From Candidatus Rokuibacteriota bacterium (lineage in GTDB: Bacteria > Methylomirabilota > Methylomirabilia > Rokubacteriales > CSP1-6): a stretch of 49,263 nucleotides of DNA. The translations under genes and the position numbers were made by a program. Below, in pieces: positions 11,067 through 29,776 of the stretch. Under the pieces are notes generated by a model. That model made no database searches. It had not been told where the DNA came from and saw only the letters and a program-made list of their open reading frames with translations. The DNA is taken from NCBI GenBank assembly GCA_030647435.1, contig JAUSJX010000078.1:104878-154140 (forward strand). Direction: 5' to 3'. How positions within the stretch are numbered: the first letter of the stretch is position 1; each line of letters begins with the position of its first letter.

Positions 11067-11396
11067 TCAAGGGATTCCCGGTGACGTCACTTCTCGGCGG
11101 CGGTCTTCCGGCAGCGCAGCCCACGCGCGGACCACAGCGTCGTAGGCCCGATGCCATTCCCCGAGCACGTCCGCGATCTCGTCTATCGACGGCCATTCGT
11201 CCCGGGTGATGGCCGGGGAGTGGAGGAGCCGCAGCGGGACATAACTCTTACCGGCCAGGACGGCAACATCCCGCCAGTCCCCTCCCAGCATCGTTGCCAC
11301 CCGCCGAACACGTTCGACTGTTTCCGCCGCACGCCCCGCGGCCACGTCCAGTGCGCGCCGCGCGACGAGGTACTGCTCGAGCAATGCTTCGCTCAT
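11067..11396 (-). CDS. Hypothetical protein coupled to the TRAP transporter
   Basis: This 109-residue, mostly helical, soluble protein starts at ATG 11396, which overlaps the dctQ stop as ATGA and follows GGAGGAG. Recognisable stretches are LLEQYLVARRALDVAAGRAA and DEWPSIDEIADVLGEWHRAY. I do not recognise the family. Translational coupling suggests a role linked to the TRAP system, or it may simply be the last gene of the operon. Confidence 0.65.
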   Translation of the reverse strand: MSEALLEQYLVARRALDVAAGRAAETVERVRRVATMLGGDWRDVAVLAGKSYVPLRLLHSPAITRDEWPSIDEIADVLGEWHRAYDAVVRAWAALPEDRRREVTSPGIP

Positions 11397-11908: not shown

Positions 11909-11916
11909 GGGGGTTC

Positions 11917-13218: not shown

Positions 13219-13220
13219 GG

Positions 13221-14246
13221 TCAGCGGCTCCGGGTCGCCTCGATCAGCTCCTTGCCCACCGGCCCGGCCTTGGTCACCCACGCCTCGATGATCTCCTGGC
13301 CCGCGGACCGTGCCTTGGCGTGGTCGGCCGCGCTCAGCCGCGTGAGCGTGACCCCGTGCGACTCGAGTGTCTTCCACGAATCACGCTGGATCGTCTTCGC
13401 GATGCCGGCCGCCCGGGCTTCCGACTCCTCGGTCACCTGCCGCACGATCGCCTGCAGATCCGCGGGTAGCTCGTTCCACGCCTTGCGCGACACGCCGACG
13501 ATGAGAGGCACATAATCGAGACCTACGTCGACCAGCGCGAACTTCTGGCGCGCGTCCCACAGGCTGAACGACACGCCGGTATAGCCGCCGGTGATCACAC
13601 CGTCGATCACCCCGCGCTGCGCCGCCGACACCATCTCGTTGTAGGACACCGAGGTGGGGCTGGCGCCGAGGCCCTGCAGGAACTGCGCGTGCTCACGGGA
13701 GTAGAAGCGCAGCTTGAGGCCCTTGAGGTCCTCCAGCTTGTTGACCGGGCGCCGGCCGTTGTAGATGATCTGCTCGTCCGCCATGTAGTACAGCAGCGGA
13801 ATGATGTCCCACTTGGCGAACTCCCGCTCCCAGATCGCGCGCGTCTTCCGCCACATTTCCGCCACCCCGTCGGGCCCCCGCTCCGAGAAGAGCATCGGCA
13901 GAGACGGGAAGCTGAGCGCGGGCATGTCGCCCGCGGCCGCGCTGTACACGAGGCCGACGACGTCCACCGAGCGCGCCTGGAGCACGCGGAGGGAGTTGGC
14001 CGCGCCCAGCGCGAGCTGCCCGCCCGCGAACCACTTGATCTCCAGCCGCCCCTGCGAGCGCTTCCCGATCTCGGCCGCCCACGTTTCGAGCAGCTCCGTC
14101 TGGATACGATGGCTCGCCGCGAATATTGAATCGGCGCGCCACACGATCTTCCCGTCCACCTTCGCGGCCTGTCCTTCGATCCGACCGGGCCAGGCGGCGG
14201 CCGCCGCCAGCACGAGCACCATCACGACCAGCGCAATCCTTCGCAT
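13221..14246 (-). CDS. dctP: TRAP transporter substrate-binding protein (DctP type)
   Basis: This 341-residue periplasmic receptor has a Sec signal peptide (MRRIALVVMVLVLAAAAAWP). It shows the DctP pattern: WAAEIGKRSQGRLEIKWFAG, LSFPSLPMLF, NGRRPVNKLEDLKGLKLR (which includes the Arg that usually grips a carboxylate) and QRGVIDGVITG. GAGGAG lies before ATG 14246. It is 60 bases beyond livF and may begin its own unit or continue the long upstream operon. The substrate is probably an organic acid; which one is unknown. Confidence 0.88.
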   Translation of the reverse strand: MRRIALVVMVLVLAAAAAWPGRIEGQAAKVDGKIVWRADSIFAASHRIQTELLETWAAEIGKRSQGRLEIKWFAGGQLALGAANSLRVLQARSVDVVGLVYSAAAGDMPALSFPSLPMLFSERGPDGVAEMWRKTRAIWEREFAKWDIIPLLYYMADEQIIYNGRRPVNKLEDLKGLKLRFYSREHAQFLQGLGASPTSVSYNEMVSAAQRGVIDGVITGGYTGVSFSLWDARQKFALVDVGLDYVPLIVGVSRKAWNELPADLQAIVRQVTEESEARAAGIAKTIQRDSWKTLESHGVTLTRLSAADHAKARSAGQEIIEAWVTKAGPVGKELIEATRSR

Positions 14247-14306
14247 GTCAGTCTCCTCTCGTGTGCACATCGTCCGCGGCGGTGGCCCGGCTCCCGCGCC
14301 GGCGCC

Positions 14307-15020
14307 TCACCGACCGCCCAGGTACGCTTCCCGCACCTCCGCCCGCCCGGCGAGCTCGGAAGCGGGGCCTTCCATCGCGACCACGCCGCCGTGCAGGACA
14401 TACGCGCGATCAGCCACCTCCAGCGACAGCCGGGCGTTCTGCTCCACGAGCAGCATGGTCAATCCCTCCCGCGCCAGGCCGGCGATGAAGGTGAAGATCT
14501 CCCGGACCACCGTGGGGGCGAGCCCCATGGACGGTTCGTCGAGGAGCAGCAAGCGCGGGCGCGACATCAGCGCGCGCCCGATAGCGAGCATCTGTTGCTG
14601 GCCGCCGCTCAACGTTCCCGCGAGCTGCTCTGCGCGCAGCCTGAGCACCGGAAAGAGTTCGTAGACACGGTCCAGCTCGCGCATCACGCCGGGCCGGTCG
14701 CGCCAGAACTGGCGGTAGGCGCCAAGGAGCAGGTTCTTCCTGACGTCGAGGCTCGCAAAGACGGCGCGGCCCTGGGGCACGTGGACCACTCCCAGCGCGA
14801 CGACGCGGTCCGGGGCGAGAGTGGCGATGCTCTGGCCCTCGAACCGGATGTCACCCCGGCGGCAGCGGGTGAGGCCGGAGATCGTCCGAAGCAGAGTGGT
14901 CTTGCCGGCGCCGTTCGCCCCGATGATGGTGACGAGCTCCCCGGCCGCGACGCGCATGGATACGCCCCGAACGGCGTCGATCCCGCCGTAGCCACTCCAC
15001 ACCTCGTGGAGCTCGAGCAT
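14307..15020 (-). CDS. livF: Branched-chain-type ABC transporter ATPase (LivF)
   Basis: This 237-residue ATPase is of the LivF type. Walker A is GANGAGKTT (about 34-42), the signature is LSGGQQQM (about 136-143), Walker B is LLLLDEPSMGLAP and the H-loop is LLVEQN. It pairs with the fused LivM-LivG two genes upstream to energise uptake of an amino acid or small carboxylate. RidA sits between the two ATPase genes. Nineteen bases separate it from ridA. Confidence 0.9.
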   Translation of the reverse strand: MLELHEVWSGYGGIDAVRGVSMRVAAGELVTIIGANGAGKTTLLRTISGLTRCRRGDIRFEGQSIATLAPDRVVALGVVHVPQGRAVFASLDVRKNLLLGAYRQFWRDRPGVMRELDRVYELFPVLRLRAEQLAGTLSGGQQQMLAIGRALMSRPRLLLLDEPSMGLAPTVVREIFTFIAGLAREGLTMLLVEQNARLSLEVADRAYVLHGGVVAMEGPASELAGRAEVREAYLGGR

Positions 15021-15039
15021 CGGGGTGTACAGACGGCGC

Positions 15040-15447
15040 CTATCCCGCCGAGCGCCCGCGCCGACTCACCGCGATGGCGTCGATCTCGATGAGGGCGCCC
15101 GGACGCAAGAGCCCCGCGACGATCACGCCGGTGGCCGCGGGGAACGTGGAGCCGAAAACTTCCCGCCGCACCGCCGCCGTGCCCGCGTAGTTCTCGGTGC
15201 TTATGACGTAGTCGCGGGTGAAGACGACGTCAGCCAGGGAGGCGCCCGCGGCCGCCAGCACCTCGGCCATCTTTCCGTAGATGAAGCGGGTCTGGGCCAC
15301 GATGTCGCCCTCGCCCACGAGCCGCCCTGTCGCCTCGTCCACCGCCGTCATCCCGGAGAGAAGGACCAGGTCCTCGGCCCGCACGGCCGCCGAGAAGGTG
15401 AACCGCGAAAAGCGCGGCCAGTTTGGAGTGATCGCCTCGTGTCGCAT
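15040..15447 (-). CDS. RidA/YjgF-family enamine-imine deaminase-like protein
   Basis: This 135-residue protein of the RidA fold starts at ATG 15447, two bases after the LivMG stop. Typical stretches are LVLLSGMTAVDEATGRLVGE, AQTRFIYGKMAEVLAAAGAS and FPAATGVIVAGLLRPGALIE, ending in IDAIAV. The Arg conserved in true deaminases for carboxylate binding is not obvious; the usual R-x-C/V-E stretch reads GVIVAGLLRPG. It may therefore belong to a non-archetypal Rid subgroup. Its place inside an importer operon suggests action on an imine formed from the imported compound. Confidence 0.8.
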   Translation of the reverse strand: MRHEAITPNWPRFSRFTFSAAVRAEDLVLLSGMTAVDEATGRLVGEGDIVAQTRFIYGKMAEVLAAAGASLADVVFTRDYVISTENYAGTAAVRREVFGSTFPAATGVIVAGLLRPGALIEIDAIAVSRRGRSAG

Positions 15448-15449
15448 TG

Positions 15450-17249
15450 TCACCTCCGTGCGAGATTCAGGGGGGTCTCGTCGCCGAGGTAGGCGACGAT
15501 GACCTGCGGGTCGCCTCGGACCGCTTCCGGCGAACCCTCCGCGATCTTCGTGCCGTGGTCGAGGACGACGACGGTATCGCAGATGCCCATGACGAATTCC
15601 ATGCGGTGCTCGATGAGGACCACGCTGACGCCGGCGGCGCGGATGGTGCGGATGAGCCGCCCGAACGCCGCCAGCTCGGTGTCGTTGAGTCCAGCCCCGG
15701 GCTCGTCCATCAGCACCACACGCGGCCGCGGGGCGAGGGCCCGCGCCAGCTCCAGCCGCCGCTGCTGATCGAGCGACAGGTCGGCCGTCCGGCGGCCCTC
15801 GAGCCCGGCGAGCCCCACCATGGCGAGGCACTCGCGCCCGCGCGCCTCCATGGCCGCTTCCTGCCCGAGGGGCACCACCGCGCTGACCGCGCCGCGCGCG
15901 AGTCCGGACAACCAGGGAAGCTGTAGCGCCACCGCGACGTTGTCCAGCACCGGGAGCTGCGGGAAGAGCCGCACGCTCTGAAACGTCCTCCCGATGCCGC
16001 GCCGGGTGATCTGGTGCGGGGGCAGACCCACGAGCGGCGCCCCGTCGAGGGTAATCCGCCCCCCGTCCGGCGGTACGAGACCGTTCAGCACGTTGAACAG
16101 CGTCGTCTTCCCCGCCCCGTTCGGGCCGATGACGCCGGTGACCGTGCCTGGCCGCACGACAAAGGATACCTTCGCGAGCGCTCGCACGCCTCCGAAGGCC
16201 TTGCTGACCTCCGACACCTCGAGGAGGGACCCGCCCCCGGTGGACCATGTCCCGGCCCGTACGGATCCCGCGGGCGCCGGCACGGCGGGCGCCACCGTCC
16301 GTGAGCCGCGGCGGGCGAGAGTGCCGAGTGCGCCCGCGAGCCCGTCGGGGAGGAACATCACTACGACCCCGAGCACAACGCCGAAGAGGATGACGTCGTA
16401 CTCCTTGTAGGCGCGCAGGTACTCAGGCAGCACGGTCAGCGCGGCGCCTCCCACCATCGGGCCCCACAGGCTTCCCATACCGCCCACGACCGCCATCGTC
16501 GCGAGCTTGACGCCGGGGAAGGCGCCGAAGGTCGGCGGATCGAGGAAGCTCATGTAGTGCGCGTAGATGCTGCCGCTCAACGACGCCCACGCCGCCCCGA
16601 GGACGAACACGCCGAGCTTCTGGCGGAAGGTGTCGACCCCCGCCACCTCGGCCGCCACCTCGTCGTCGCGCAGCGCCCGGAGTGACCGCCCCGTCACCGA
16701 CCACGACAGCCCGATCGCGGCGAGCTGGCACAGCGCCCAGAGTCCCCAGACGACGTAGAAGAAGTGGAGATCGGAGCCCGCCGTCCAGCCGCCCAGCGAC
16801 AGCGGCGGGATGCCGGCGAGCCCGGACGCTCCCCCGGTGATGTCCTTCCATTCCTCGAGGAGGATCTGCACGATGATCCCGACCCCGAGGGTGGCCATCG
16901 CGAAGTAGTAGCCGCGGAGCCGGAGGGCGGGCAGGCCGATCACCAGGGCCACCACCATGGTGAGGACCACGCCGACTGCCATGGCCGCCCATGGCGCGAG
17001 GCCGTAGTGCAGGCACAGGATACCCGAGGTATAGGCGCCGATACCGAAGAAGGCGGCGTGGCCGAGCGAGATCTGACCACCCCAGCCGAGGATCAGGTTC
17101 AGTCCAGTCACCAGCACCACGTTGAGGCCGGTGACCACCATCACGTTGACGTAGTACGGGTTGGAGAAGACGGCGGGCGTCAGCGCGAGCGCCACCACCA
17201 GCCCCGCGAGGAGGCCGAGGTCGCGCCGCAGCCCGCGCGCCCGGCTCAT
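15450..17249 (-). CDS. Fused ABC permease-ATPase (LivM-LivG)
   Basis: One 599-residue polypeptide joins a LivM permease (residues 1 to about 320, with GLNLILGWGGQISLGHAAFF and the conserved GMGSLWGPMVGG) to a LivG ATPase (from about 345). A proline/glycine-rich linker (about 325-345) connects them. The ATPase has Walker A GPNGAGKTT, Walker B VVLMDEPGAGLN and H-loop VLIEHRM. Its signature reads LSLDQQRRLELARAL, without the usual glycine. The start overlaps the livH stop as ATGA. The fusion is seen directly with no internal break. LivH and the SBP are just upstream, LivF downstream. Confidence 0.9.
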   Translation of the reverse strand: MSRARGLRRDLGLLAGLVVALALTPAVFSNPYYVNVMVVTGLNVVLVTGLNLILGWGGQISLGHAAFFGIGAYTSGILCLHYGLAPWAAMAVGVVLTMVVALVIGLPALRLRGYYFAMATLGVGIIVQILLEEWKDITGGASGLAGIPPLSLGGWTAGSDLHFFYVVWGLWALCQLAAIGLSWSVTGRSLRALRDDEVAAEVAGVDTFRQKLGVFVLGAAWASLSGSIYAHYMSFLDPPTFGAFPGVKLATMAVVGGMGSLWGPMVGGAALTVLPEYLRAYKEYDVILFGVVLGVVVMFLPDGLAGALGTLARRGSRTVAPAVPAPAGSVRAGTWSTGGGSLLEVSEVSKAFGGVRALAKVSFVVRPGTVTGVIGPNGAGKTTLFNVLNGLVPPDGGRITLDGAPLVGLPPHQITRRGIGRTFQSVRLFPQLPVLDNVAVALQLPWLSGLARGAVSAVVPLGQEAAMEARGRECLAMVGLAGLEGRRTADLSLDQQRRLELARALAPRPRVVLMDEPGAGLNDTELAAFGRLIRTIRAAGVSVVLIEHRMEFVMGICDTVVVLDHGTKIAEGSPEAVRGDPQVIVAYLGDETPLNLARR

Positions 17250-18112
17250 CGGGCCGCCGCGACGAAGAGGCCCGAAGGCCGCAGCACGAGCACGGCCAGG
17301 AGGATGCCGAAGCTGAAGGCGTCGCGAAGGCCGGTGGAGACAAAGCCCGCCGCGAATGCCTCCACCACGCCGAGGGCGACCGCTCCGACGACCGCGCCCA
17401 CCGGGTTCCCCATGCCCCCGAGGACGCAGGCGGAGAAGGCCTTCACGCCGAGCATGGTGCCCATGTCCCAGGTCGCGAACGTGATGGGCGCCACCACGAT
17501 GCCGGCGATCGCCCCCGAGCCCGCGCTCACCGCGTAGGCGAGCGCGGTCGCGTACCGGACGCTGATTCCCATAAGGGCCGCCGCCTCCGAGTGGTCGGAC
17601 ACCGCGAGGAGCGACCAGCCCAGCATGGTGCCGCGGAAGACCAGCCAGAAGAGGACGAGCAGGGCCAGCACCGTCCCCACCACCCAGAGCCCCTGCGGCG
17701 AGATCGCGGCGCCGAAGAGCCAGAGCGATGCCTCCCCCGAGAAGGCGGGGAGGGGGCGAGCATTGGCGCCGAAGGCCAGGAGCGCCACCCCCTTGAACAC
17801 AATCGAGGCAGCGATGGTCATGATGACGGTAGCTACGAGATGCGACCGACCGAGGGGCGCGATCATCAGCACGTCCATGGCCACGCCGATGACGACCACC
17901 GCCCCCACCGCGAGGACGACGGCAAACGGGAGCGGCACGCCATGCAGGACGCCGGTAGCGGCCAGCATCGCACCCAGCATGAGGAACTCGCCCTGCGCGA
18001 AGTTCACCACACCGGTGGCGTTGTACACCACGGTGAACCCGAGCGCGGTCACGGCGTAGACCGCGCCCACCGTGAGCCCCGAGAAGAGGAGCTGGACGAC
18101 GTTGATGTCCAC
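17246..18112 (-). CDS. livH: Branched-chain-type ABC permease (LivH)
   Basis: This 288-residue inner-membrane permease has eight or more hydrophobic segments. Motifs include YNATGVVNFAQGEFLMLGAM (about 29-48) and the coupling region GVKAFSACVLGGMGNPVGAV. GTG 18112 is the start, 24 bases after the SBP stop. It pairs with the LivM half of the fusion protein. Confidence 0.9.
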   Translation of the reverse strand: MDINVVQLLFSGLTVGAVYAVTALGFTVVYNATGVVNFAQGEFLMLGAMLAATGVLHGVPLPFAVVLAVGAVVVIGVAMDVLMIAPLGRSHLVATVIMTIAASIVFKGVALLAFGANARPLPAFSGEASLWLFGAAISPQGLWVVGTVLALLVLFWLVFRGTMLGWSLLAVSDHSEAAALMGISVRYATALAYAVSAGSGAIAGIVVAPITFATWDMGTMLGVKAFSACVLGGMGNPVGAVVGAVALGVVEAFAAGFVSTGLRDAFSFGILLAVLVLRPSGLFVAAAR

Positions 18113-18136
18113 CGCGCTCGCTACGCCTCCCGCGCG

Positions 18137-19294
18137 CTACTCGGCGAGAACGAACTTGCCGTCCTGCCCCCGCAACATGATGAGAGAGTCGACGGAGAGG
18201 CCGGAGTGGTCCTGCGCCGAGAAGTTGAAGACGCCGGTCAGGCCAACAAGCCCGCGGAGCTTCTCTATCCCATCGCGGATCTGCTGACGATCGGTGGCAC
18301 CCCGTCGCATAGACTCCACCACGACCAGGAGCGTGTCGTACCCGACGCCGGCGAAGTACTCGACGTCCTCGTTGTGCTTGGAGCGGAACTGGTCGCGGAA
18401 CCGCAGGATCAGCGCGCGCTGGGGGTCATTGGCCGCGAGCGCGTCGGGAAGGTTGACCTTCGGCGAGGGGACTAGGTTCCCGTTGGAGGCGGGGCCAGCG
18501 AGCTGCAGGTATCGAGGCGACGACCAGCCGTGGGTGTGGTACACGGCCACGTCGAGGCCGAGCTGCTTGACGTTCTTGACCAGGAGGGCGGAGGAGGGAT
18601 GCACGTTCCACGAGAGGATGGCGTTGGCCCCGCTCGCCTTGACGCGCAGGAGCTGCGCCGTCATGTCGGTGTCCGCGGTGCGGTAGGTCTCCTGGGCCAC
18701 CACCTGCACGCCGAACTTCGGCGCCGCCGCCACGAACTCGGTGCGGGCGTCCTCGCCGTAGGCGATGGCCGGGGTGACGGTGGCCACCTTGCCGTGACCG
18801 AGCTTCTTCATGTGCTCCAGGACCTTCGTGACGACGACATCGTTGCCCACCACCGGCCGGAAGACCCACGGTTTGACGGGGTGCGTGAGCGCGCTGGAAC
18901 CGACCCCCGAGACCATGACGACCTTGGCCCGCTCGGCGAGCGGGTAGGCAGCGAGCGCCTCGCCGGTGGTGCTGGGGCCGACGATGGCGAGCACGTTGTC
19001 GAGCTCGATGAGTCGCTTGGTCGCGGTCACTGCCTTGGTGGGGTCGCCCTCGCTGTCGTAGATGACCACCTCGAGCGGCCGCCCGTTGATGCCGCCGGCG
19101 GCGTTGATCTGTTCCTGGAGAAGCACGATGGCCTTCCGCTCCGGCTCCCCGAGGAAGGCGGCCGGTCCGCTCACGGCGAGGACCGCGCCGACGCGCAGCG
19201 GGGCCTGGGCCTGGGCGTCGGCGCAGGCCAGCCACCCGCCGAGGAGTGAGCCCGCGAAGACGAGCAGCACTGCGATCGAAGACTTCCGCTTCAT
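18137..19294 (-). CDS. ABC substrate-binding protein, branched-chain type
   Basis: This 385-residue periplasmic binding protein (type I fold) begins with a Sec signal peptide of about 29 residues (MKRKSSIAVLLVFAGSLLGG to DAQAQA). Family features are VGAVLAVSGPAAFLGEPERK, the INAAGGINGRPLEVVIYDSE region and IVGPSTTGEA. ATG 19294 overlaps the stop of the molybdenum-hydroxylase gene as ATGA, which ties uptake and oxidation together. Frames extending further upstream are shadows of that gene. The ligand may be an aromatic or amino acid; it is not determinable here. Confidence 0.9.
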   Translation of the reverse strand: MKRKSSIAVLLVFAGSLLGGWLACADAQAQAPLRVGAVLAVSGPAAFLGEPERKAIVLLQEQINAAGGINGRPLEVVIYDSEGDPTKAVTATKRLIELDNVLAIVGPSTTGEALAAYPLAERAKVVMVSGVGSSALTHPVKPWVFRPVVGNDVVVTKVLEHMKKLGHGKVATVTPAIAYGEDARTEFVAAAPKFGVQVVAQETYRTADTDMTAQLLRVKASGANAILSWNVHPSSALLVKNVKQLGLDVAVYHTHGWSSPRYLQLAGPASNGNLVPSPKVNLPDALAANDPQRALILRFRDQFRSKHNEDVEYFAGVGYDTLLVVVESMRRGATDRQQIRDGIEKLRGLVGLTGVFNFSAQDHSGLSVDSLIMLRGQDGKFVLAE

Positions 19295-21666
19295 GAGCGT
19301 GCCCCTTCTGTGCCCCGCGACGCTGTCCGCCAGACGTCCTCCGGGGTGAGTGGAATGTGAGCGATGTGCGCCCCGAACGGGCGGAGCGCGTCGGCAACGG
19401 CGTTCGCTACCGCCGCCACCGCCCCGATCGTCCCTCCTTCTCCCATGCCTTTGATGCCGCCCACCGTCAGCGGCGAGGGTGTCTCGAGGTGGAATATGTC
19501 GAATTCGCCGGGCAGGTCCGTGGCCCGGGGGAGCGGGTAGTCCATGAAGGAGGCGGTGAGGAGCTGCCCCCGCGCGTCGTAGCGCGCGCCCTCCCCGAGC
19601 GCCTCGCCCACACCCTGGGCGACTCCGCCGTGGATCTGGCCGTCCACGATGAGGGGATTGATGACGGTGCCGCAGTCGTGCACGACGAGGTACCGCACCA
19701 GCCGGACGACGCCGGTATCGACGTCGACCTCGACGACGGCGAAGTGGGCGCCGTTGGAGATGGTCTGGATGGGCGGGTCGTAGTACTCGGTGACGTCCAG
19801 GCCCGGCGCGATCCCGTCCGGAAGCGCGACGGGGCTCACCATGTACGCCTGCTTCGCGAGGTCGGCAAAGGCCACCGACCGGAAGGAAGCCCCCTTGACG
19901 GCGACGCGCCCGTCCTTGAGCTCGAGGTCGGCCGCCAGCGCCTCCAGGCGGTGGGCGGCGATCGCGAGCACCTTGTCCCGCACCTTCCGGGCGGCCAGGA
20001 TAGTGGCGCCGCCGCCAACCACCGCCCCCCGGCTCCCCCACGACCCGCTCCCATAGGGCGCGAGGGTGGAATCGCCGCAGCTCACGCGGATGCGGTCGAG
20101 CCCGACGCCCAGCTCGTCGGCCACCAGCTGGGCCAGCGCGGTCTCGATCCCCTGGCCCATGGCGGTGCAGCTCGTGTAGACGCGGACAACACCGCTCGGA
20201 TCCACGCGGACCGTGGCGGCGTCGAAGCCGGGTACGCGCACGATGCCACGCCAGAGGAGGGCCTTGGCGCTGGCTGCGGTGAACTCGGCGTAGCAGGAGA
20301 TGCCGATCCCCAGATAGCGCCGCGCCGCGCGCCCGCGCGCCTGCTCCTCGCGCAGCGCCTCGTAGCCGAGCTCGCGCAGGCCGACGCGCAGCGATTCCTG
20401 GAAGCTCGCGCGCTCGTAACTCACGCCCAGCGCGTTCGTGTAGGGAAACTCCGCGTCGGCGATCAGATTGCGGCGCCGGACCTCGGCCGGGTCCAGGCCG
20501 AGGCGCTCGGCGAGGAGGTCCATCATCCGCTCCATCGAGAATGTCGTCGTCACCATCGCCACGCCGCGGTATGCCCCGCGCGGCTGCGTATTGCTCACCA
20601 CCGCGGTTGCCTCGTAGGCGTAGCTGGCAACGCGGTAGGGGCCGAGGATTTGCCGGGCCGCGCCCGTCGCCTCCAACGTCGAGCCGAAGGGCAAGATCGA
20701 GTAGGCGCCCGCATTGGTCACCACCCGGGCCCGCATCCCCTCGATGCGGCCGTCGGCGGTGGCGGCCAGCTCCACCGTGATGCGGTGGTCGCGGCAGTAG
20801 ACATTGCATTGCAGGTCCTCGAGGCGTCCCTGCACCCACTTGACGGGCCGTCCGAGGCGGTGCGCCGCCCAGGCGACGACGAGGTCCTCGGGATACATGT
20901 GCAGCTTGATGCCGAACCCTCCGCCGATGTCCGGGGGAATCACGCGGATGGTGTGCTCGGGAAGGTCGAGCAGCTCGGCGAGCAGCGTCCGTACGACGTG
21001 GGGGCTCTGGTGGGAGGTCCACAGCGTCAACTGCCCGCTTCCGCCGTCGTGCTGGGCCACGCACCCGCGCGTTTCCAGCGGCGCCGCTGTCACCGGGGCC
21101 GAGCGGAAGGTCTCGGTCAGCCGGACCGCCGCCCGCGCAAACGCCGCGTCCACGTCGCCGCCCTGGCCCTTCGCGCGCATGAGGACGTTATCGGCCCAGT
21201 GGCCGTGGACCCGCGGGGCACCCGCGGCGAGAGCGTCCTCGATGGTGACGGTGGCGGGCAGCGGCTCGTAGTCCACCGCGACCCGCGCGGCGGCATCCTC
21301 GGCGGCGGCGAGGTCCTCCGCCACCACCGCTGCTACCGCCTCGCCGACGTAGCGCACCTTCCCGCTGGCAAGGGCCGGCCACTCCGTCACCTTGTAGTCG
21401 GTGAGCTGCATGTCGTCCGCGCGCATCACTTTGACTCCATCGAGGTCGCGCGCGGTGAGGCAGGCCACCACGCCGGGGACGCGGGCTGCCGCCGCGGTGT
21501 CAATCGCCCTTACGCGGGCGTGGGCGTGCGGGGAGCGGACGAAGACGACGTGCGCCATCCCCGGCAGGGTGATGTCGTCGACGTACCGCCCCCTCCCCGC
21601 CACCAGCCGCGGGTCTTCCACCCGCGGCTGCCGCGCTCCCACGTGCTTCGACGACACCTGCGTCAT
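19291..21666 (-). CDS. Molybdenum hydroxylase large subunit (xanthine dehydrogenase/CoxL family), orphan
   Basis: This 791-residue molybdopterin-binding subunit hydroxylates C-H bonds, often next to ring nitrogens. It shows an N-terminal a/b hammerhead domain (GRYVDDITLPG), PDIGGGFGIKLHMYPED, PRGAYRGVAM (about 362), GQGIETALAQ and the C-terminal GIKGMGEGGTIGA (about 735) with the catalytic Glu. The CO-dehydrogenase Cys loop (AYRCSFR) is absent, so it is not a CO dehydrogenase. No FAD or 2Fe-2S subunit gene lies nearby, although the paralogue at 39656 has both. It overlaps the SBP gene by four bases. Confidence 0.88.
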   Translation of the reverse strand: MTQVSSKHVGARQPRVEDPRLVAGRGRYVDDITLPGMAHVVFVRSPHAHARVRAIDTAAAARVPGVVACLTARDLDGVKVMRADDMQLTDYKVTEWPALASGKVRYVGEAVAAVVAEDLAAAEDAAARVAVDYEPLPATVTIEDALAAGAPRVHGHWADNVLMRAKGQGGDVDAAFARAAVRLTETFRSAPVTAAPLETRGCVAQHDGGSGQLTLWTSHQSPHVVRTLLAELLDLPEHTIRVIPPDIGGGFGIKLHMYPEDLVVAWAAHRLGRPVKWVQGRLEDLQCNVYCRDHRITVELAATADGRIEGMRARVVTNAGAYSILPFGSTLEATGAARQILGPYRVASYAYEATAVVSNTQPRGAYRGVAMVTTTFSMERMMDLLAERLGLDPAEVRRRNLIADAEFPYTNALGVSYERASFQESLRVGLRELGYEALREEQARGRAARRYLGIGISCYAEFTAASAKALLWRGIVRVPGFDAATVRVDPSGVVRVYTSCTAMGQGIETALAQLVADELGVGLDRIRVSCGDSTLAPYGSGSWGSRGAVVGGGATILAARKVRDKVLAIAAHRLEALAADLELKDGRVAVKGASFRSVAFADLAKQAYMVSPVALPDGIAPGLDVTEYYDPPIQTISNGAHFAVVEVDVDTGVVRLVRYLVVHDCGTVINPLIVDGQIHGGVAQGVGEALGEGARYDARGQLLTASFMDYPLPRATDLPGEFDIFHLETPSPLTVGGIKGMGEGGTIGAVAAVANAVADALRPFGAHIAHIPLTPEDVWRTASRGTEGARS

Positions 21667-21695
21667 CGTGCCCTCCCTCGCGCCGGCCGTAGCGA

Positions 21696-22718
21696 TCAGA
21701 TCTGCTGGATGGCGGCGACAAGCTTCTTCACGCGCTCATCAGTGTCCCCGAACGTCCAGTCGGGGTAGCCGAGATGCACGCGCTTGGCGTAGCTGCCGAA
21801 CCGGTCCTTGATGAGGTCGGGCAGCTCCTCGTAGCGCCCCACTACCGAGAAGTTCTCGACCATCTCGTCGGTGATGAGCTTGGCCATCTCGACCCACTTG
21901 CCCTCCTTGGACATGGGGTGCAGGCGCGCGGTCACCTCGCCCCAGCCGTGGTACTCGAAGATCGGGCGGTAGGTGGGCGTGGAGCCGTAGAACGCGATGC
22001 GCGACCGGATGGCCTCGCGTGCGCGCTTGATCTCCTCCGGCGTCGAGCCCACCCCCACGAAGCTGCCGTTGCTGATGTCGACGCTCTTGGGGTCGCGGCC
22101 CATTTTCCTGGCACCCGCGTAAAAAGCGGGCACGAGCCGCTCGCGCACCCAGCGGTTGGTCACGGGGTCGCCGAAGAAGACGCCGTCGCAGATCTCGCCC
22201 GCGAGCCCGGCCATGCCGGTGTTCATGCAGGAGGTGTAGATGGGCGGCCGGGGGACGGTGAGCGGCTCCGGGGTGAACAACGGGATCATGAGGGTGTGGG
22301 TGTAGTGCTCGCTGTGGAAGTTGAGCGGCGTCTTGTTCTGCCAGCAGTCGAAGATCGCGTGGAGCGCGTTCACGTAGTCGCGCATCCGCGGGAGTGGCGG
22401 CGAGTAGGGCACGCTGTAGCGGCGCTCCATGTGGCCCTTCACCTGGGTGCCGAGGCCGAGCTCGAACCGCCCCTTGGCGAGGTCCTGGATGGACCACGCG
22501 GAGTAGGCGGTGACCATCGGGCTCCGCGGGAACGCCACGTGGATCCACGTGGCCATGCGGAGCCTGGTGGTGGCGGCGGCGGCCATGGTGCAGGACAGGA
22601 TCGGCGGCGTGGTCATCTCCGCCATGGTCACGCCGTCGAAGCCCAGGCGCTCCAGCCGCTGGACGAAGGCCGGGACGTCGGCCAGGTGCTTGGGACGGGA
22701 GTCAACGTACACGCGCAT
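21696..22718 (-). CDS. LLM-class flavin/F420-dependent oxidoreductase
   Basis: This 340-residue luciferase-like TIM-barrel protein has FVQRLERLGFDGVTMAEMTT near residue 20-38, MATWIHVAFPRSPMVTAYSA and FELGLGTQVKGHMERRY. The family uses FMN or F420. The cofH gene nearby makes F420 plausible, but cofactor choice cannot be read with certainty. ATG 22718 follows AAGGAGG. Twenty-nine bases separate it from the molybdenum-hydroxylase gene. It probably reduces or oxidises an intermediate of the same pathway. Confidence 0.87.
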   Translation of the reverse strand: MRVYVDSRPKHLADVPAFVQRLERLGFDGVTMAEMTTPPILSCTMAAAATTRLRMATWIHVAFPRSPMVTAYSAWSIQDLAKGRFELGLGTQVKGHMERRYSVPYSPPLPRMRDYVNALHAIFDCWQNKTPLNFHSEHYTHTLMIPLFTPEPLTVPRPPIYTSCMNTGMAGLAGEICDGVFFGDPVTNRWVRERLVPAFYAGARKMGRDPKSVDISNGSFVGVGSTPEEIKRAREAIRSRIAFYGSTPTYRPIFEYHGWGEVTARLHPMSKEGKWVEMAKLITDEMVENFSVVGRYEELPDLIKDRFGSYAKRVHLGYPDWTFGDTDERVKKLVAAIQQI

Positions 22719-22756
22719 TTCGCACTTCCTCCTTGAGGGGTATCGGTGTCGGTGGG

Positions 22757-23695
22757 TTACGGGGTCGCGAGCAGGGCCCGGGCATTCTGCTCGACGATCT
22801 TCTCGATCTCGTCGGAGCGGAAGGCGACGTCGCCGTCGGTGGTGGCGGGCAGCTCCCGCACATGCTCCAGCCACTGGCGGCGGTCGAGGAAGACGTCGAA
22901 GAAGGGGCCGTCCACGCCGAACAGGATCCGGTCGGCCCCCACCGCGTCGATCACGCGACGGAGCACGCGCCGGAACTGCGTGGGGTTCACCGCCGCGGTC
23001 ATCTGGAAGGCGGAGACGTCGGCGAGCAGCCGCGCCTTGCCGCGGGCGACCTCGCAGTACTCGCGCCACCAGGCGAAGCTCATGTGGGCCGCGATCGCGG
23101 TGAGATCGGGGAACTCGTCGAGGACCGCCGCGATGGGCCGGGGGTGCGCCCAGTCGCTCGCGTCCTCCGGCCGGGGCCCGGAATGGAAGACGATCGGCAG
23201 CCGATGGTCGGACGCGTAGCGGTACACTGGGGCCATGGCGGGGTCGGTGGGGTAATACCGGCCCGCGAGCGGGTCGAGCTTGAGGCCGCGCATCCCCCAC
23301 TCCTCCACCGCGCGGCGGACGAGCGCGAGCGGGTCGGACACTCGCGGGTGGACGCCCGCGAAGCCGACGAGACGCCCCGGCCAGCGCCGCACCACCGCGG
23401 CCACGTCGCGGTTCTGCCTCTCGAAGGCGTCGCCCGGAGCGTCGGAATCGAAGGAGAAGCCGCCCACCACCACGAAGGAGGTGTCGATGCCCGCCGCCTC
23501 CATCTTGGCAATCGCCCCCTCGCCCGCGGGGTCGAAGCACTCCTTCTCGATATGGGCCCGCAGTGCGGCCGGCGCCATCGGGCGGCCCAGCTTCTCGAGC
23601 TGCGGCCCGAAGAGCTCGGTGACGCCGTCGAGTAGGGGCGCCGAGAGCGCCCCCGGCGTCACGTAGAGATGACAGTGCGTGTCGATCGCTCCCAT
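22757..23695 (-). CDS. Amidohydrolase_2-family metal-dependent hydrolase/decarboxylase
   Basis: This 312-residue TIM-barrel protein has the metal-binding set in order: H7 and H9 in IDTHCHLY, a His in LPIVFHSGP, a His in AIAAHMSFAW and an Asp in RILFGVDGPFF. The family includes ACMSD and 5-carboxyvanillate/resorcylate-type decarboxylases as well as lactone hydrolases, so ring-acid decarboxylation or hydrolysis are both possible. The start at ATG 23695 is 8 bases after the preceding CoA-transferase gene. Its operon position fits aromatic-acid catabolism. Confidence 0.83.
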   Translation of the reverse strand: MGAIDTHCHLYVTPGALSAPLLDGVTELFGPQLEKLGRPMAPAALRAHIEKECFDPAGEGAIAKMEAAGIDTSFVVVGGFSFDSDAPGDAFERQNRDVAAVVRRWPGRLVGFAGVHPRVSDPLALVRRAVEEWGMRGLKLDPLAGRYYPTDPAMAPVYRYASDHRLPIVFHSGPRPEDASDWAHPRPIAAVLDEFPDLTAIAAHMSFAWWREYCEVARGKARLLADVSAFQMTAAVNPTQFRRVLRRVIDAVGADRILFGVDGPFFDVFLDRRQWLEHVRELPATTDGDVAFRSDEIEKIVEQNARALLATP

Positions 23696-23703
23696 CCGAT
23701 CTC

Positions 23704-24915
23704 CTATGAAAACGCGCCCGCCTCGCGCAGGGTGGCGAACTCGTCGTCCGACATCCCGAGGACCTCGCGGCAGACGCGCTCGGTGTCCTGGCCGAAAAGC
23801 GGCCCGGGGTGGCGGATCTCGGCCGGCGTCTCCGAGAGCGCGTACGGGTTGCCGCTGAGCGTGCAGGTGCCGATCTCCGCGTGCTCGCGGACATGCCAAT
23901 GCCCGCGGTGATTGAGCTGTGGGTCGGCGCGCAGGTCCTCGCCCCGCTGCACGAAGCCCGCGGGCACGCCAGCCGCCTGTAGCGGGCCCACCACGTCCTC
24001 CGCCCGCCGCGCCGCCGTCCACACGGCAAGGAGGCCGTCGATCTCCTCCTCGTGGCGCTTGCGGCCCTCCGCGGTGGCGAAGCGCGCCGCTTCCAGCGCG
24101 GGGATGGCGGCCACCCGCACCAGCGCCTCCCACTCCGCGTCCTCGGTGACCGCGATCGCGCACCAGCGGTCATCGCCAGCGGACGGGTAAACATTGTGGG
24201 GGGCGGCCGCCGAGTCCCGGTTGCCCCGCCGCGCCCAGACCCGGCCGTTGACGGTGTAGTCGAGCAGCACAGGGCCAAGAAAGTTCAGTGCCACCTCGTA
24301 CTGCGACGCCTCGATGTGCACGCCCTGACCAGTGCGCTCACGCTGCGCGAGGGCGGCGAGGATGGCGGTGGCGCCGACCGGTGGCAGGAGCCAATCGGGG
24401 TAGGCTCCGTAGACCTCGACTGGACCCCGGTCCGGCCAGCCGGTCAGATGCGCGAAGCCGGTAAGGCCGGCCAGCGTCACGCCGAACCCCGGGTGGCCCG
24501 AATGCGGACCGCCCGCGCCCTGGATGCTGGTGCTGAACAGGATCACGCGGGGGTTGAGCGCGCGCAGCGTCTCGTAGCCGAGGCCGAGCCGCTCGAAGAC
24601 TCCGGGCGTGAAGTTTTCGACGACGACGTCCGCCCACCGCACGAGCCGCCGGGCTAGGTCGAGCCCGGCCGGGTGCTTCAGGTTTAGCGTCATCCCGAGC
24701 TTGTTGCAGTTGAGCTCGTTGAACCAGCCGGCGCGGTTCAGGCCGGGGACACTGTCTTTCATAGGGGGCGCGAGGCGGGCGAGATCGGGCTGCTCGCCGG
24801 ACTCGATCTTGACCACGGTGGCGCCGTGGGTGGCGAAGACGCGCGCCGTGGCGGGACCTGTGCCCACCTGGGAGAAATCGGCTACCGTGACGTCGGCGAG
24901 CGCGCCCGCGGCCAT
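23704..24915 (-). CDS. CaiB/BaiF-family (type III) CoA-transferase, copy 2
   Basis: This 403-residue enzyme moves CoA between acyl groups. It has VADFSQVGTGPATARVFATH at the start, GATVVKIESGEQPDLARL, NKLGMTLNLKHPAG, VVVENFTPGVFERLGLGYE and RTGQGVHIEASQYEVAL, with an acidic residue at the S-x-x-[DE] site. The ATG overlaps the stop of the upstream CoA-transferase by one base (TGATG), so the two are probably translated together and may form a heteromer. Confidence 0.88.
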   Translation of the reverse strand: MAAGALADVTVADFSQVGTGPATARVFATHGATVVKIESGEQPDLARLAPPMKDSVPGLNRAGWFNELNCNKLGMTLNLKHPAGLDLARRLVRWADVVVENFTPGVFERLGLGYETLRALNPRVILFSTSIQGAGGPHSGHPGFGVTLAGLTGFAHLTGWPDRGPVEVYGAYPDWLLPPVGATAILAALAQRERTGQGVHIEASQYEVALNFLGPVLLDYTVNGRVWARRGNRDSAAAPHNVYPSAGDDRWCAIAVTEDAEWEALVRVAAIPALEAARFATAEGRKRHEEEIDGLLAVWTAARRAEDVVGPLQAAGVPAGFVQRGEDLRADPQLNHRGHWHVREHAEIGTCTLSGNPYALSETPAEIRHPGPLFGQDTERVCREVLGMSDDEFATLREAGAFS

Positions 24916-26177
24916 CAGACGGCCCCGCTGCCGCGCAGGGCGGCCAGATCGTCGGCGCCGAGGCCCAGCTCGCCGTAGACCTCGGCGTTGTGCTGCCCCA
25001 ACGCGGGCGCTGGCGCCCGCAGGGCCACCACCCGCCCGTCGAGCCGGAACGGGGGGCCGGGGAAGGTCATCGTCCCCGACCACGGGTCGTCGACGGTCCG
25101 CCAGAAGCCCCGCGCCCGGAGCTGCGGGTCTTCCAGGATCTCGCGCGACGTGAAGGCCGGGTAAAGCATGATCCGGCGCTTCACCGCCTGCTCCATCAGC
25201 TCCTGCATCGAGAAGCGTCGGAAGAAGGCGGAGAAGCGCGGGACGATGGGGTCGAGGTCCGCCTGGGACACCACGCGCCAGTCGAAGCGCATCCAGTCGA
25301 TGCCGCGCAGGTAGTCGTCGGAGGCGTCCGCCTCCTCCATCCAGTCGGTGAGCGCGCGTAGGGAGCGCGCGCCGAAGCTGCCACCGATGATGGCGAAGCA
25401 GAGGTGGCCATCGCGACATTGCCACACGAACGGGAACGTGACCCCGGTGTCGGGGCGACGACGGTTCGCCCCCGACCGCCGCACATTGCTCCGGGTGAGA
25501 TCCCAGAAGAGATGGACATCCTGGAGCACCCAGATCACCGCCTGCTGGCCCGACACGTCCACGAACTGTCCCCGCCCCGTCCGCAGGCGATGGTAGTAAG
25601 CGATGAGCGTGCCGACCGCCGCCTGCGCACCGGCCACCGCGTGCGACTGGGGGAAGCTGATGCGTACAGGCGGCCGGTCGGGGTCGCCGAGGACATAGAC
25701 GTGGCCGGCCATCGCCTCCAGCACAAGGTCCGGCGCCTTGAACTGCGCGTAGGGCCCGGTCTGTCCAAACGGGGTGATGGCGGTGTAGACGAGCCGCGGG
25801 TTGTCGCCGACCAGCGTGGAATAGCCGAGGCCCATCCCCTCCATGGTCCCGGGGGGGAAGGACTCGACGAGCACGTCGGCCCGCGCGGCCAGCCGGCGTA
25901 GCAGCGCGCGCCCGGAGGGCACACCAAGATTCAGGGTCACGCCACGCTTGGCGGTGTTGAGAAAGGTCCACGTCAGGCTGCGCTCCGCGTCGGGGGCGCC
26001 GGGGGCGCCGTCCCGGAACGGCCCGAGGCGACGGCCCGAGTCTCCGGCAGGCGGCTCGATCTTGATCACGTCAGCGCCGAGGTCGGCCAGGAGGCGCGCG
26101 CAGAAGGCGCCCGCGTGCCCGGTGAGGTCGAGCACCCGGCAGCCAGCGAGGAAACCCGCGGTCGGCGGGGCCATCAT
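24915..26177 (-). CDS. CaiB/BaiF-family (type III) CoA-transferase, copy 1
   Basis: This 420-residue paralogue of the following gene has RVLDLTGHAGAFCARLLADL, GADVIKIEPPAGDSGR, GVTLNLGVPSGRALLRRLAA and VLVESFPPGTMEGMGLGYS. At the S-x-x-[DE] site where its neighbour has Glu, this copy reads SGQQAV, with no acid. Whether that removes a catalytic residue depends on an alignment I cannot run. The ATG overlaps the regulator stop as ATGA. The pair suggests activation of a dicarboxylate or aromatic acid as a CoA thioester. Confidence 0.87.
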   Translation of the reverse strand: MMAPPTAGFLAGCRVLDLTGHAGAFCARLLADLGADVIKIEPPAGDSGRRLGPFRDGAPGAPDAERSLTWTFLNTAKRGVTLNLGVPSGRALLRRLAARADVLVESFPPGTMEGMGLGYSTLVGDNPRLVYTAITPFGQTGPYAQFKAPDLVLEAMAGHVYVLGDPDRPPVRISFPQSHAVAGAQAAVGTLIAYYHRLRTGRGQFVDVSGQQAVIWVLQDVHLFWDLTRSNVRRSGANRRRPDTGVTFPFVWQCRDGHLCFAIIGGSFGARSLRALTDWMEEADASDDYLRGIDWMRFDWRVVSQADLDPIVPRFSAFFRRFSMQELMEQAVKRRIMLYPAFTSREILEDPQLRARGFWRTVDDPWSGTMTFPGPPFRLDGRVVALRAPAPALGQHNAEVYGELGLGADDLAALRGSGAV

Positions 26178-26779
26178 CGTCCGCCCCGCCTCGCGCGGGC
26201 GCCCGCCGGGAGCCCCCCGTCGTCAGGCATCCCGGGCAGGCGCCAGTCGAAGGCGCGCTTGACCATGTCGAGGATGTAGAAGGTCTCGCTGCGCTCGATG
26301 CCGGGCACCTCGCCGAGCGACACCGTCAGGAAGCGCATGAGCTCGTTCGACCTCTCGAAGACCGCGGCGAACATGACGTCGTAGCGGCCCGCCACGACGG
26401 CGAGCCACGTGACCTCGCGGAACTTGCGCAGCCGCTGCGCCACCGCCAGCGTCTTGCCGCTCCCGGTGGTGAGACCGATGAAGGCGTAGATAGCGTAGCC
26501 CACCTTGAGCGGCTCGGCCACCGCCACCACCTGGATGACGCCGTTCTCGATCAGGGACTCGATGCGCCGGCGCACGCTCGACTCCCCAAGGCCCAGCCCG
26601 CGCGACATCTCGGCATTCGACTGACGGGCGTCGCGCTGTAGCGCCTGGATGATGCGGCGGTCGGTGGCGTCGAGCACCGGCGCCGCCTCCGGGAGCTCAT
26701 TCGGCGACATCCTCGCCGCTGGCTTTCGGCCTCTACGCCGCTGTTTATGACGATTTTCGGCTACCACACGCTTGACCAT
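26174..26779 (-). CDS. Lrp/AsnC-family transcriptional regulator
   Basis: This protein of up to 201 residues starts with an Arg/Lys-rich tail, followed by an AsnC-type winged HTH (LDATDRRIIQALQRDARQSN, then LGLGESSVRRRIESLIENGV). A RAM ligand-binding domain follows (YAIYAFIGLTTGSG, VVAGRYDVMFA, IERSETFYILDMVKRAF). Start is ATG 26779 or ATG 26710; the second drops the basic tail. It is the first gene of the long minus-strand catabolic operon, overlapping the next gene as ATGA. Its promoter shares a -10 with that of the divergent cofH unit, so it probably regulates both. Confidence 0.88.
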   Translation of the reverse strand: MVKRVVAENRHKQRRRGRKPAARMSPNELPEAAPVLDATDRRIIQALQRDARQSNAEMSRGLGLGESSVRRRIESLIENGVIQVVAVAEPLKVGYAIYAFIGLTTGSGKTLAVAQRLRKFREVTWLAVVAGRYDVMFAAVFERSNELMRFLTVSLGEVPGIERSETFYILDMVKRAFDWRLPGMPDDGGLPAGARARRGGR

Positions 26780-26800
26780 GGCTGAATCCGCCGCTATAGT
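26772..26800 (+). promoter_or_regulatory. Sigma70 promoter for the cofH-ligase unit
   Basis: TTGACC (26772-26777) and TATAGT (26795-26800) are 17 bases apart. Start is predicted near 26807, 46 bases before the cofH ATG. The -35 lies just beside or inside the first codons of the regulator gene, and the -10 is shared with the minus-strand promoter. Confidence 0.55.
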
Positions 26801-26825
26801 AGGTTCCCCTGACGGAACTTGTCAA
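26796..26825 (-). promoter_or_regulatory. Sigma70 promoter for the regulator/catabolic operon
   Basis: On the minus strand TTGACA (26825-26820) and TACTAT (26801-26796) are 18 bases apart. Transcription should start near 26789. That leaves about 10 bases before ATG 26779 or about 79 before ATG 26710. The -10 overlaps the -10 of the opposing promoter. Confidence 0.6.
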
Positions 26826-26852
26826 GGCCTCCGTCGGGGAGGAGGAACGCAC

Positions 26853-28130
26853 ATGAGCACCGGCGCCGCGAATGGCCTCGCTCCCGCGCTCGACGGAGCC
26901 TCGAGGGACACGCGCGCGATCCTCGCCCGAGTCCTGGACGGCGCCGAGCTCCCGCTGCCGGAGGCCCTCGCCCTCGCGGAAGCGCGCGGGCGCGACCTCC
27001 AAGCCCTCGCCGCGGCGGCCGACGAGATGCGGCGCCGCCAGGCCGGCGACCTCGTCACCTTCGTGGTGAACCGCAACATCAACTTCACGAACGTCTGCAT
27101 CAAGCACTGTGGCTTCTGCGCCTTCAGCCGTGACCACCGCGAGGAGGAGGGTTACCTCCTGCCCATCGCGGAGGTGGTCCGGCGCGCGCGCGAGGCGGCG
27201 GATCTCGGCGCCACCGAGGTCTGCATCCAGGCGGGGCTGCCCCCCAGGCTGGACGGGCGCTTCTACATCGATCTCTGCCGCGCGCTGAAGGCCGCGCTGC
27301 CCGATCTCCACCTGCACGCCTTCTCCCCGGAGGAGATCCTCTACGGTTCCGTGCGCTCCGGGTTGCCTATCAAGGACTACCTGAGCGAGCTCAAGGCGGC
27401 CGGCCTCGGCACCCTGCCCGGCACCTCGGCGGAGGTGCTCGACCAGGCCGTGCGCGACTCCATCGCCCGGGGTCGCATCACGGTGGACCAGTGGGTGGAG
27501 GTGATCACCACCGCCCATGCCCTCGGCATCCGCACCACGTCCACCATCATGTACGGCCACGTCGAGACGCCCGCGCACTGGGTGCGGCACATGGCGCTGC
27601 TGCGCGACATCCAGAAGGACACCGGCGGCTTCACGGAGTTCGTGCCGCTCTCCCTCATCCCGTTCGAGGCGCCGATGTACGCGAAGAAGCTCGTGGCCGG
27701 CGTGCGGCCGGGCGCCACCGGCGTGGAGGTGGTTTGCATGCACGCCCTCGCGCGGCTGATGCTGGGCCCCGTGCTCCCCAATATCCAGGCCTCGTGGGTG
27801 AAGGAAGGCCCGAAGCTCGCGCAGATCCTCCTCGATGCCGGCGCCAACGACCTCGGGGGCACCCTCATCAACGAGTGGATCTCGACCTCTGCAGGCACCG
27901 CCTTCGGGCAGCTCGTGCCGCCCGCGGAGCTGCGCCGCCTCATCCGCGACGCCGGCCGGGTGCCCGCGCAGCGCGACACCCTCTACCGCATCCTCCACGT
28001 CTACGGCGAGGATGACGAGACGGAGTCCGCCCTAGATTGTGTCGAGGACGCGGAGGCGCGCTTCGGCTCGTATCGCCGCCTCATCGCGTCGGGCGAGTTC
28101 CGCTTCACGAACCCGGGAGACCGCCGATGA
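26853..28130 (+). CDS. cofH: FO synthase subunit 2 (CofH), radical SAM
   Basis: This 425-residue radical-SAM enzyme joins tyrosine-derived 4-hydroxyphenyl to 5-amino-6-ribitylaminouracil on the way to the F420 chromophore. RNINFTNVCIKHCGFCAFSR holds the cluster cysteines C82, C86 and C89 in the CofH-type spacing. Also typical are CIQAGLPP, HLHAFSPEEI, LPGTSAEVL and SWVKEGPKLAQILLDAGAND. A strong GGAGGAGG precedes ATG 26853. It overlaps the ligase gene as ATGA. No cofG is in the window, so its partner must be elsewhere. A menaquinone-type MqnE/MqnC enzyme is the less likely alternative. Confidence 0.85.
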   Translation: MSTGAANGLAPALDGASRDTRAILARVLDGAELPLPEALALAEARGRDLQALAAAADEMRRRQAGDLVTFVVNRNINFTNVCIKHCGFCAFSRDHREEEGYLLPIAEVVRRAREAADLGATEVCIQAGLPPRLDGRFYIDLCRALKAALPDLHLHAFSPEEILYGSVRSGLPIKDYLSELKAAGLGTLPGTSAEVLDQAVRDSIARGRITVDQWVEVITTAHALGIRTTSTIMYGHVETPAHWVRHMALLRDIQKDTGGFTEFVPLSLIPFEAPMYAKKLVAGVRPGATGVEVVCMHALARLMLGPVLPNIQASWVKEGPKLAQILLDAGANDLGGTLINEWISTSAGTAFGQLVPPAELRRLIRDAGRVPAQRDTLYRILHVYGEDDETESALDCVEDAEARFGSYRRLIASGEFRFTNPGDRR

Positions 28131-29776
28131 CCATGGACCGCTACCTTCCTCCCCGCGCGCTGTGGCCCGAGCGTGTGTACACGCTGGCGGAACACCGGGC
28201 CTATCCAGCCCGCTTCAACTCTACGGAGGTGCTGCTCGACCGCCACGTCGAGGCGGGGCACGGCGACCGGACAGCTGTCCTCTTCGAGGACCGCCGGATC
28301 ACCTACCGGGCGTTGCAGGAGGACGTCAACCGCCTCGGGTCGGCGCTGCGGGGCCTAGGCGTGGAGGAGGACGATCGCGTGCTCCTGCGGGCGCCGTCGA
28401 TCCCGCCGTCGCTAGTGGCGAACTTCGCCATCATCAAGATCGGCGCGGTCAGTGTGCCGATCTCGCCGCTCTTCTCCCGCGTGGAGATCGCCCACGTCGC
28501 GCGCGCGACGGCGGCGAAGGCCATCCTCGTCGCCGCCTCCCTCCTCGAGGAGGTCGAGCGCGCCCGCGAGGATCTGGACGGGGCGATTCCCGTCATCGTT
28601 ATCGGAGGCGACCCGGCCGAGATCCGCGCCAAGGGATTCATCTCCTATGGAGAGCTCCTTGCCCGGGGCGACGCGCGCCTGGCCGCGGTCCCCCGCGATC
28701 GCCTCGCTCCGTCGGTTCTGCTATTCACCTCGGGCACCACCGGAATGCCCAAGGGCACCGTGCATTTGATGGACGAGGCGCTTACCGTCGCCGACGGCTT
28801 CGGCCGCCTGGGCTGGCGCCTCACGCCCGAGGACGTCCTCTGCAGCCCCGCGCCGCTGTCCACGGCCGCCGGATACTCCGCTCAGGCCGTCATCCCGTTC
28901 CGGCTCGGCGCCCCCATCTCCCTGCTCGCGCGCTTCAGCCCCGAGGGTATGCTCCAGCAGATCGAGCGCCACCGGGTGTCGGTGGTCTCCGTGCTCCCCA
29001 CCGGCTACCGAAAAATCCTGGAGCTGCCCGACGCCGCCCGGCGCCACGACCTGGGGTCGGTCCGCCTCTACACGGGCGGGGGCGAATCGCTGACGCCGGC
29101 CACCTACGAACAGTGGCGGCTCGCGTTCGGCCGCGAGATCTACGAGGGTCTGGGCACGACCGAGATGATGTTCGTCTTCGCGTCCTCCGCGGTGACGGGC
29201 CGCGTGAAGGTCGGGGCCATCGGACCCGCCGTCCCCGGGTACGAGCTGCGCGTGGTGGACGAGGACGGCCGCGACTGCAAGCCGGGGGAGGTCGGGTCGC
29301 TCATCGCCCGCGGCCCCACCGGGACCATCTACTGGAACGACCTGGAGCGCCAGCGCGCGGCCGTCGAGGCCGGATGGTCGCGGATCGGCGACCTCGTCAC
29401 GATGGATGAGGACGGCTACATCTCCTTCCTCTCCCGCGAGGATGACATCATCAAGTCCTCGGGCTACCGCATCGGGCCCGACGAGGTCGAGCAGGCCCTG
29501 GCCGGCCACTCCGCCGTCGCCGACGTGGGGGTGATCGGCATTCCCCACGCCGTGCACGGCGAGGACACCTGCGCCTTCATCGTCCTGCAGCCGGGATCCA
29601 CCGACTCCCCCGCCCTCCGTCAGGAGATCATCGACTCGTGCCGGGGAACCATCGCCGTCTACAAGCTCCCCCGAGTGCTGCGGGTGGTCGAGCGCCTCCC
29701 GCGCGCGCCCGGCCCCGCCGGCCCGGGGACGGGGAAGCTCCTCCGCCGGCTGCTCCGCGAGATGACCGCACGATGA
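28127..29776 (+). CDS. AMP-forming aryl-CoA ligase (benzoate/2-aminobenzoate-CoA ligase-like)
   Basis: This 549-residue acyl-adenylate enzyme has the P-loop TSGTTGMPKGT (about 201-211), YEGLGTTEMMFVFAS and the hinge/C-terminal SREDDIIKSSGYRIGPDEVE. The final catalytic Lys is in GTGKLLRRLL. The N-terminal LPPRALWPERVYTLAEH...RFNSTEVLLDRHVE resembles 2-aminobenzoate- and benzoate-CoA ligases, but the exact acid is a guess. It starts inside the cofH stop (ATGA) and ends inside the start of a broken SBP gene (ATGA). Confidence 0.83.
   Translation: MTMDRYLPPRALWPERVYTLAEHRAYPARFNSTEVLLDRHVEAGHGDRTAVLFEDRRITYRALQEDVNRLGSALRGLGVEEDDRVLLRAPSIPPSLVANFAIIKIGAVSVPISPLFSRVEIAHVARATAAKAILVAASLLEEVERAREDLDGAIPVIVIGGDPAEIRAKGFISYGELLARGDARLAAVPRDRLAPSVLLFTSGTTGMPKGTVHLMDEALTVADGFGRLGWRLTPEDVLCSPAPLSTAAGYSAQAVIPFRLGAPISLLARFSPEGMLQQIERHRVSVVSVLPTGYRKILELPDAARRHDLGSVRLYTGGGESLTPATYEQWRLAFGREIYEGLGTTEMMFVFASSAVTGRVKVGAIGPAVPGYELRVVDEDGRDCKPGEVGSLIARGPTGTIYWNDLERQRAAVEAGWSRIGDLVTMDEDGYISFLSREDDIIKSSGYRIGPDEVEQALAGHSAVADVGVIGIPHAVHGEDTCAFIVLQPGSTDSPALRQEIIDSCRGTIAVYKLPRVLRVVERLPRAPGPAGPGTGKLLRRLLREMTAR

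Follow-up and report, generated by a model that had tools for sequence, protein, structure and literature searches.

Can two operons that run in opposite directions be started from a single -10 element, and would such an element force the cell to express only one of them at a time? This question is raised by the gap between lrp, a gene for an Lrp/AsnC-type regulator, and an orphan copy of cofH in the genome of a Candidatus Rokuibacteriota bacterium. The 49,263-nucleotide stretch of contig JAUSJX010000078.1 analyzed here, and the position numbers within it, are referred to below as the window.

Layout of the lrp-cofH gap

The hexamers lie within a genuine divergent gap, since the gene calls place lrp and cofH on opposite strands to either side of them (Table 1). 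On the plus strand, TTGACC and TATAGT are separated by a 17-bp spacer (26778-26794), and on the minus strand, TTGACA and TACTAT are separated by 18 bp. A sequence-only reading had proposed this arrangement with a common -10 element; it was confirmed, and the coordinates given for it were exact. Together, the two -10 hexamers span 26795-26801 and have bases 26796-26800 in common. An independent promoter scan returned exactly these two sites in the gap, each matching 10 of the 12 consensus bases, and no others there; across 14 kb, it returned three sites in total. Positions 26796 and 26800 each double as -11A and -7T, a reciprocal pairing across the strands, and CTATAG (26794-26799) is a palindrome. 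When a 7-bp rule was applied, the start in the lrp direction was predicted at 26789 (G) and that in the cofH direction at 26807, which places the two predicted starts 18 bp apart. The base at 26807 is a C within a run of four C, and transcription toward cofH may therefore actually begin at a purine close by, for example 26811 or 26812.

Table 1. Features of the lrp-cofH gap and of the genes beside it (window coordinates)
Feature	Position	Strand	Details
Closely packed genes downstream of lrp	11393..26177	-	
Lrp/AsnC-type regulator (lrp)	26174..26710	-	Pfam HTH_24, HTH_AsnC-type, AsnC_trans_reg
Divergent gap, 142 bp	26711..26852	.	60% GC; core 26772-26825, 52% GC; genome, 68% GC
-35 TTGACC, cofH direction	26772..26777	+	5/6; direct reading and independent scan
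-10 TATAGT, cofH direction	26795..26800	+	5/6; -11A = 26796, -7T = 26800
-10 TACTAT, lrp direction	26796..26801	-	4/6; both key positions kept
-35 TTGACA, lrp direction	26820..26825	-	6/6; direct reading and independent scan
Candidate operator GTTCC-N6-GGAAC	26803..26818	.	In the lrp-promoter spacer, over the predicted cofH start
10-bp inverted repeat CCCTGACGGA/TCCGTCGGGG	26807..26839	+	
Orphan cofH (FO synthase subunit 2)	26853..28130	+	ATG start; GGGGAGGAGG upstream
AMP-forming acyl/aryl-CoA ligase	28127..29776	+	PF00501, PF13193; 4-bp overlap with cofH

Translation of lrp probably begins at ATG 26710 or at GTG 26677, the latter with GGAGG 8 nt upstream, and the lrp leader would therefore measure about 79 to 112 nt. 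An ATG at 26779 was rejected as the start: the codons from 26779 to 26711 have a GC3 of 0.52, whereas gene starts average 0.88 and only 0.2% of 1150 genes reach so low a value, and in distant homologues the conserved xxDxxII is preceded by only a few residues.

Two further elements lie within the gap. GTTCC-N6-GGAAC has three copies in 1.41 Mb of the genome, of which only this one is intergenic, and a role for it as an operator is speculative. The inverted repeat extends from the predicted cofH transcript start to beside the ribosome-binding site, with a predicted folding energy of -20.5 kcal/mol for 54 nt (z of -2.2); it could form a 5' hairpin on the cofH transcript that acts as a stabilizing or control element. 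An Rfam search of the window returned no match, and hence no known RNA leader or riboswitch. The gap as a whole has no second copy elsewhere in the genome and no full-length match elsewhere.

Promoter-like sites in the genome background

The background consisted of 1.41 Mb of the same 5.8-Mb genome, taken as fetched regions with the window included, in which genes were called by a simple codon-usage caller trained on this genome. A site was defined throughout as a promoter in which 10 or more of the 12 bases agree with a sigma70-like consensus, the host genome's own sigma preference being judged from enrichment only. The density of such sites was 147 per Mb in intergenic DNA but 1.7 per Mb within genes, an 89-fold difference, and the 30 intergenic sites observed compare with 3 per 203 kb from a first-order Markov model of intergenic DNA. 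Of the 27 intergenic sites to which a downstream gene could be assigned, 25 faced a gene on the same strand, the present pair making up 2 of the 25. The intergenic enrichment and the correct orientation indicate that the consensus serves well for finding promoters in this organism.

Against this background, a common -10 element with at least 10/12 matches on both strands was found at this site alone in the 1.41 Mb, and ten Markov replicates contained no such pair. Among the 93 divergent gaps, any site was present in 6 and one on each strand in 1, the gap described here; among random gaps with matching dinucleotide composition, 362 of 100,000 contained any site and 0 of 100,000 contained one on each strand, figures that apply to a site chosen because it was striking in appearance. 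The two -10 hexamers do not count as independent evidence, because, owing to the CTATAG palindrome, any fair -10 entails a comparable one on the opposite strand; the independent evidence therefore rests on the two -35 hexamers. The common -10 pair is not due to chance.

Flanking genes and the proposed F420 link

Both promoter directions run into genes, and cofH has a strong ribosome-binding site. An Lrp/AsnC protein heading a long minus-strand operon and a plus-strand unit of cofH and a ligase gene had both been proposed, and both descriptions held up. The regulator matched the AsnC-type HTH and ligand-binding domains with 48.9 bits against a cut-off of 27 and 41.3 bits against a cut-off of 25, respectively, and cofH and the ligase gene overlap in the plus-strand unit. 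The genes downstream of lrp encode two CoA transferases, an amidohydrolase, an F420-type luciferase-like oxidoreductase, the large subunit of a Mo-hydroxylase, a branched-chain-type ABC transporter, a RidA-like protein, and a TRAP transporter. The second CoA transferase (23704-24915) was identified from its translation and its resemblance to the first. Genes for a Mo-hydroxylase large subunit and for an ABC transporter of the branched-chain type occur both at 15453-21666 and at 33533-42037, one region on either side of the gap, and the two regions resemble parallel units for uptake and oxidation.

Close relatives of the regulator were absent from the 57 family genomes, where the best matches were 34 to 40% identical, and a GTDB scan that used the regulator as query returned none either. 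No fetched cofH locus besides that of the window had a close Lrp relative nearby, and an lrp gene adjoining cofH was absent from the 57 family genomes, the GTDB Lrp scan, and the 80 cofH loci retained after GTDB was scanned with CofH.

The ligase scored below the cut-off for the benzoate-CoA ligase family. Its relatives are 59 to 69% identical in 13 other family genomes, contig C48 of the present genome carries a paralogue with 67% identity, and none of nine fetched loci of these relatives had cofH alongside. Between the ligase and a Rieske oxygenase gene lie 527 bases (29777-30303) with at most one weakly scored open reading frame (30044-30262), and because of this separation the oxygenase may belong to a separate transcription unit. 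Farther along, a 350-residue protein is encoded at 32462-33514 between flavin reductase and transporter genes; it had no Pfam match, and a longer reading of it from 32393 had no NCBIfam match.

The identity of CofH is clear from a TIGR03551 score of 466 bits, compared to the curated cut-off of 374, and from the radical-SAM cysteine motif CIKHCGFC in its translation. Its usual, though not required, partner cofG is absent beside it; the genome's cofG occurs only on contig C13, where it is grouped with the other cofH, cofD, and cofE. Of the 112 cofH loci examined, 2 of which are the window locus itself, 105 have cofG directly upstream, and the window copy has lrp there instead. The locus resembles the cofG-cofH operons of Rokubacteria and Methylomirabilota in its CofH protein, which shares as much as 85% identity with the proteins they encode, but differs from them in the gene that precedes cofH. 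The window CofH is 73% identical to the genome's own CofH from C13, and in the cofH tree it is placed with a Rokubacteria lineage other than that of the C13 copy (85% identity, support of 96/97). This separate placement rules out a recent local duplicate and points to either horizontal gain or an old paralogue.

It had also been suggested that the shared promoter ties F420 supply to a degradation operon. This suggestion is weak, as cofH stands here without cofG, and cofG, cofH, cofD, and cofE are together on C13. With these genes on C13, F420 could be supplied independently of this promoter, and the F420 link would amount at most to additional copies of a single FO-synthase subunit.

Probable bidirectional transcription, competition, and the proposed switch

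We consider it likely, judging from the sequence, that 26772-26825 is a sigma70-type bidirectional promoter for which co-expression is the default. RNA polymerase would open a single symmetric -10 element (CTATAGTA) in either orientation, with the two outward -35 elements setting the two directions. Transcription of lrp and the catabolic operon would start near 26789, and cofH-ligase transcripts would begin around 26807 or at a purine slightly downstream. One polymerase would be bound at a time, both units would be co-expressed by default, and interference would appear only once one direction turned strong, for example, on activation. The hexamers, their spacings, the 18-bp register, the non-randomness, and the gene context are directly shown; promoter activity, the start points, interference, and any Lrp control are what we infer. 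The bidirectional reading draws on the 18-bp spacing of the predicted starts and the reciprocal -11A/-7T pairing, which together form the commonest published arrangement. Bidirectional promoters have divergent starts 7 to 25 bp apart, commonly 18 (PMC10268837), and in the commonest bacterial layout the starts are 18 bp apart and -11A is paired with the opposite -7T (PMC10268837, PMC12825309). In E. coli, bidirectional promoters are the source of 19% of the RNAs detected, and 24% of these promoters lie between divergent genes and give two mRNAs (PMC12825309). Two-way promoters are common in bacteria and already described, and the present site is very probably a further good example.

The site shares with the promoters of Warman, Grainger, and colleagues (PMC12825309, PMC10268837) a symmetric -10 element that would be read both ways, the -11A/-7T cross-pairing, starts (predicted here) that are 18 bp apart, and a position between divergent genes. 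It differs from them in that both -35 elements are near consensus, in that it is known from sequence alone, and in its host, which belongs to a different phylum and has a GC content of 68%. A T at -18, which is frequent but not required in bidirectional promoters, is absent on both sides (26789 is a C on the plus strand and 26807 is a G on the minus strand). As at the E. coli acrR/acrA and soxR/soxS loci (PMC12825309), a regulator gene and a divergent unit share one promoter core, but the regulator here is of the Lrp/AsnC type and heads a catabolic operon.

If a single direction were at work, the -10 of the other would follow inevitably as the mirror image of a near-palindromic hexamer, and its -35 would be an accident. 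The CTATAG palindrome, which makes the -10s non-independent, and the match of only 4/6 for the lrp-direction TACTAT fit this explanation, but the -35 hexamers speak against it. Given a -10, the chance of a -35 with at least 5/6 matches at 16 to 18 bp is 0.9%, which is the figure for TTGACC or better on the opposite side, and that of a perfect -35 such as TTGACA at the right spacing is 0.04%. In addition, there are genes on both sides, and the scan found no further site in the gap, so that we regard a one-direction promoter as rather unlikely. The hexamers might instead be accidental altogether, with the genes using promoters elsewhere or another sigma factor, and approximately 10% of single intergenic sites this strong (3/30) are indeed expected by chance; set against the uniqueness of the pair in 1.41 Mb and its absence from 100,000 random gaps, this explanation is very improbable.

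The remaining alternative concerns how a bidirectional promoter would be used. That only one polymerase can be held at a time, as the sequence-only reading had it, follows from the geometry as steric exclusion. Its further step, that the operons may be mutually exclusive, was unsupported as stated, because five natural E. coli bidirectional promoters showed no competition at basal strength: weakening one direction gave no rise in the other, and competition appeared only after one -35 was improved or an activator raised one direction (PMC12825309). Shared occupancy therefore does not imply exclusive expression. Since both -35 elements are near consensus here, interference is more plausible than usual, and some competition between the lrp and cofH directions would be more likely than at most such promoters. 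Whether Lrp bound in the gap could steer the polymerase so that the two units alternate is a special case of the bidirectional reading, and its probability overlaps with that of the latter. The regulator gene is adjacent and divergent, a palindrome lies within the lrp-promoter spacer, the -35s on both sides are near consensus, and E. coli activators that favor one direction often repress the opposite one (PMC12825309). However, the case for an operator consists of one palindrome, competition is absent at bidirectional promoters of basal strength, and a dimer bound at 26803-26818 would lie across the two promoters, with repression of both as a possible outcome. Lrp as the switch is thus a neighborhood argument and speculation, and we judge an exclusive switch set by Lrp to be unlikely. 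Decidedly improbable, in our estimation, is a true either/or switch in which strong -35s and polymerase competition, not a repressor, would set the catabolic operon against the spare cofH-ligase unit.

As a bidirectional promoter, the site is a clean and statistically backed candidate from an uncultured GC-rich lineage, and its pair of near-consensus -35 elements makes it a useful construct for determining when competition for a -10 element becomes regulatory. For the organism, the locus presents a lone extra cofH under a new promoter and away from its cofG partner. If it were a true either/or switch, the cell could balance the supply of an additional FO-synthase subunit against catabolism that uses F420.
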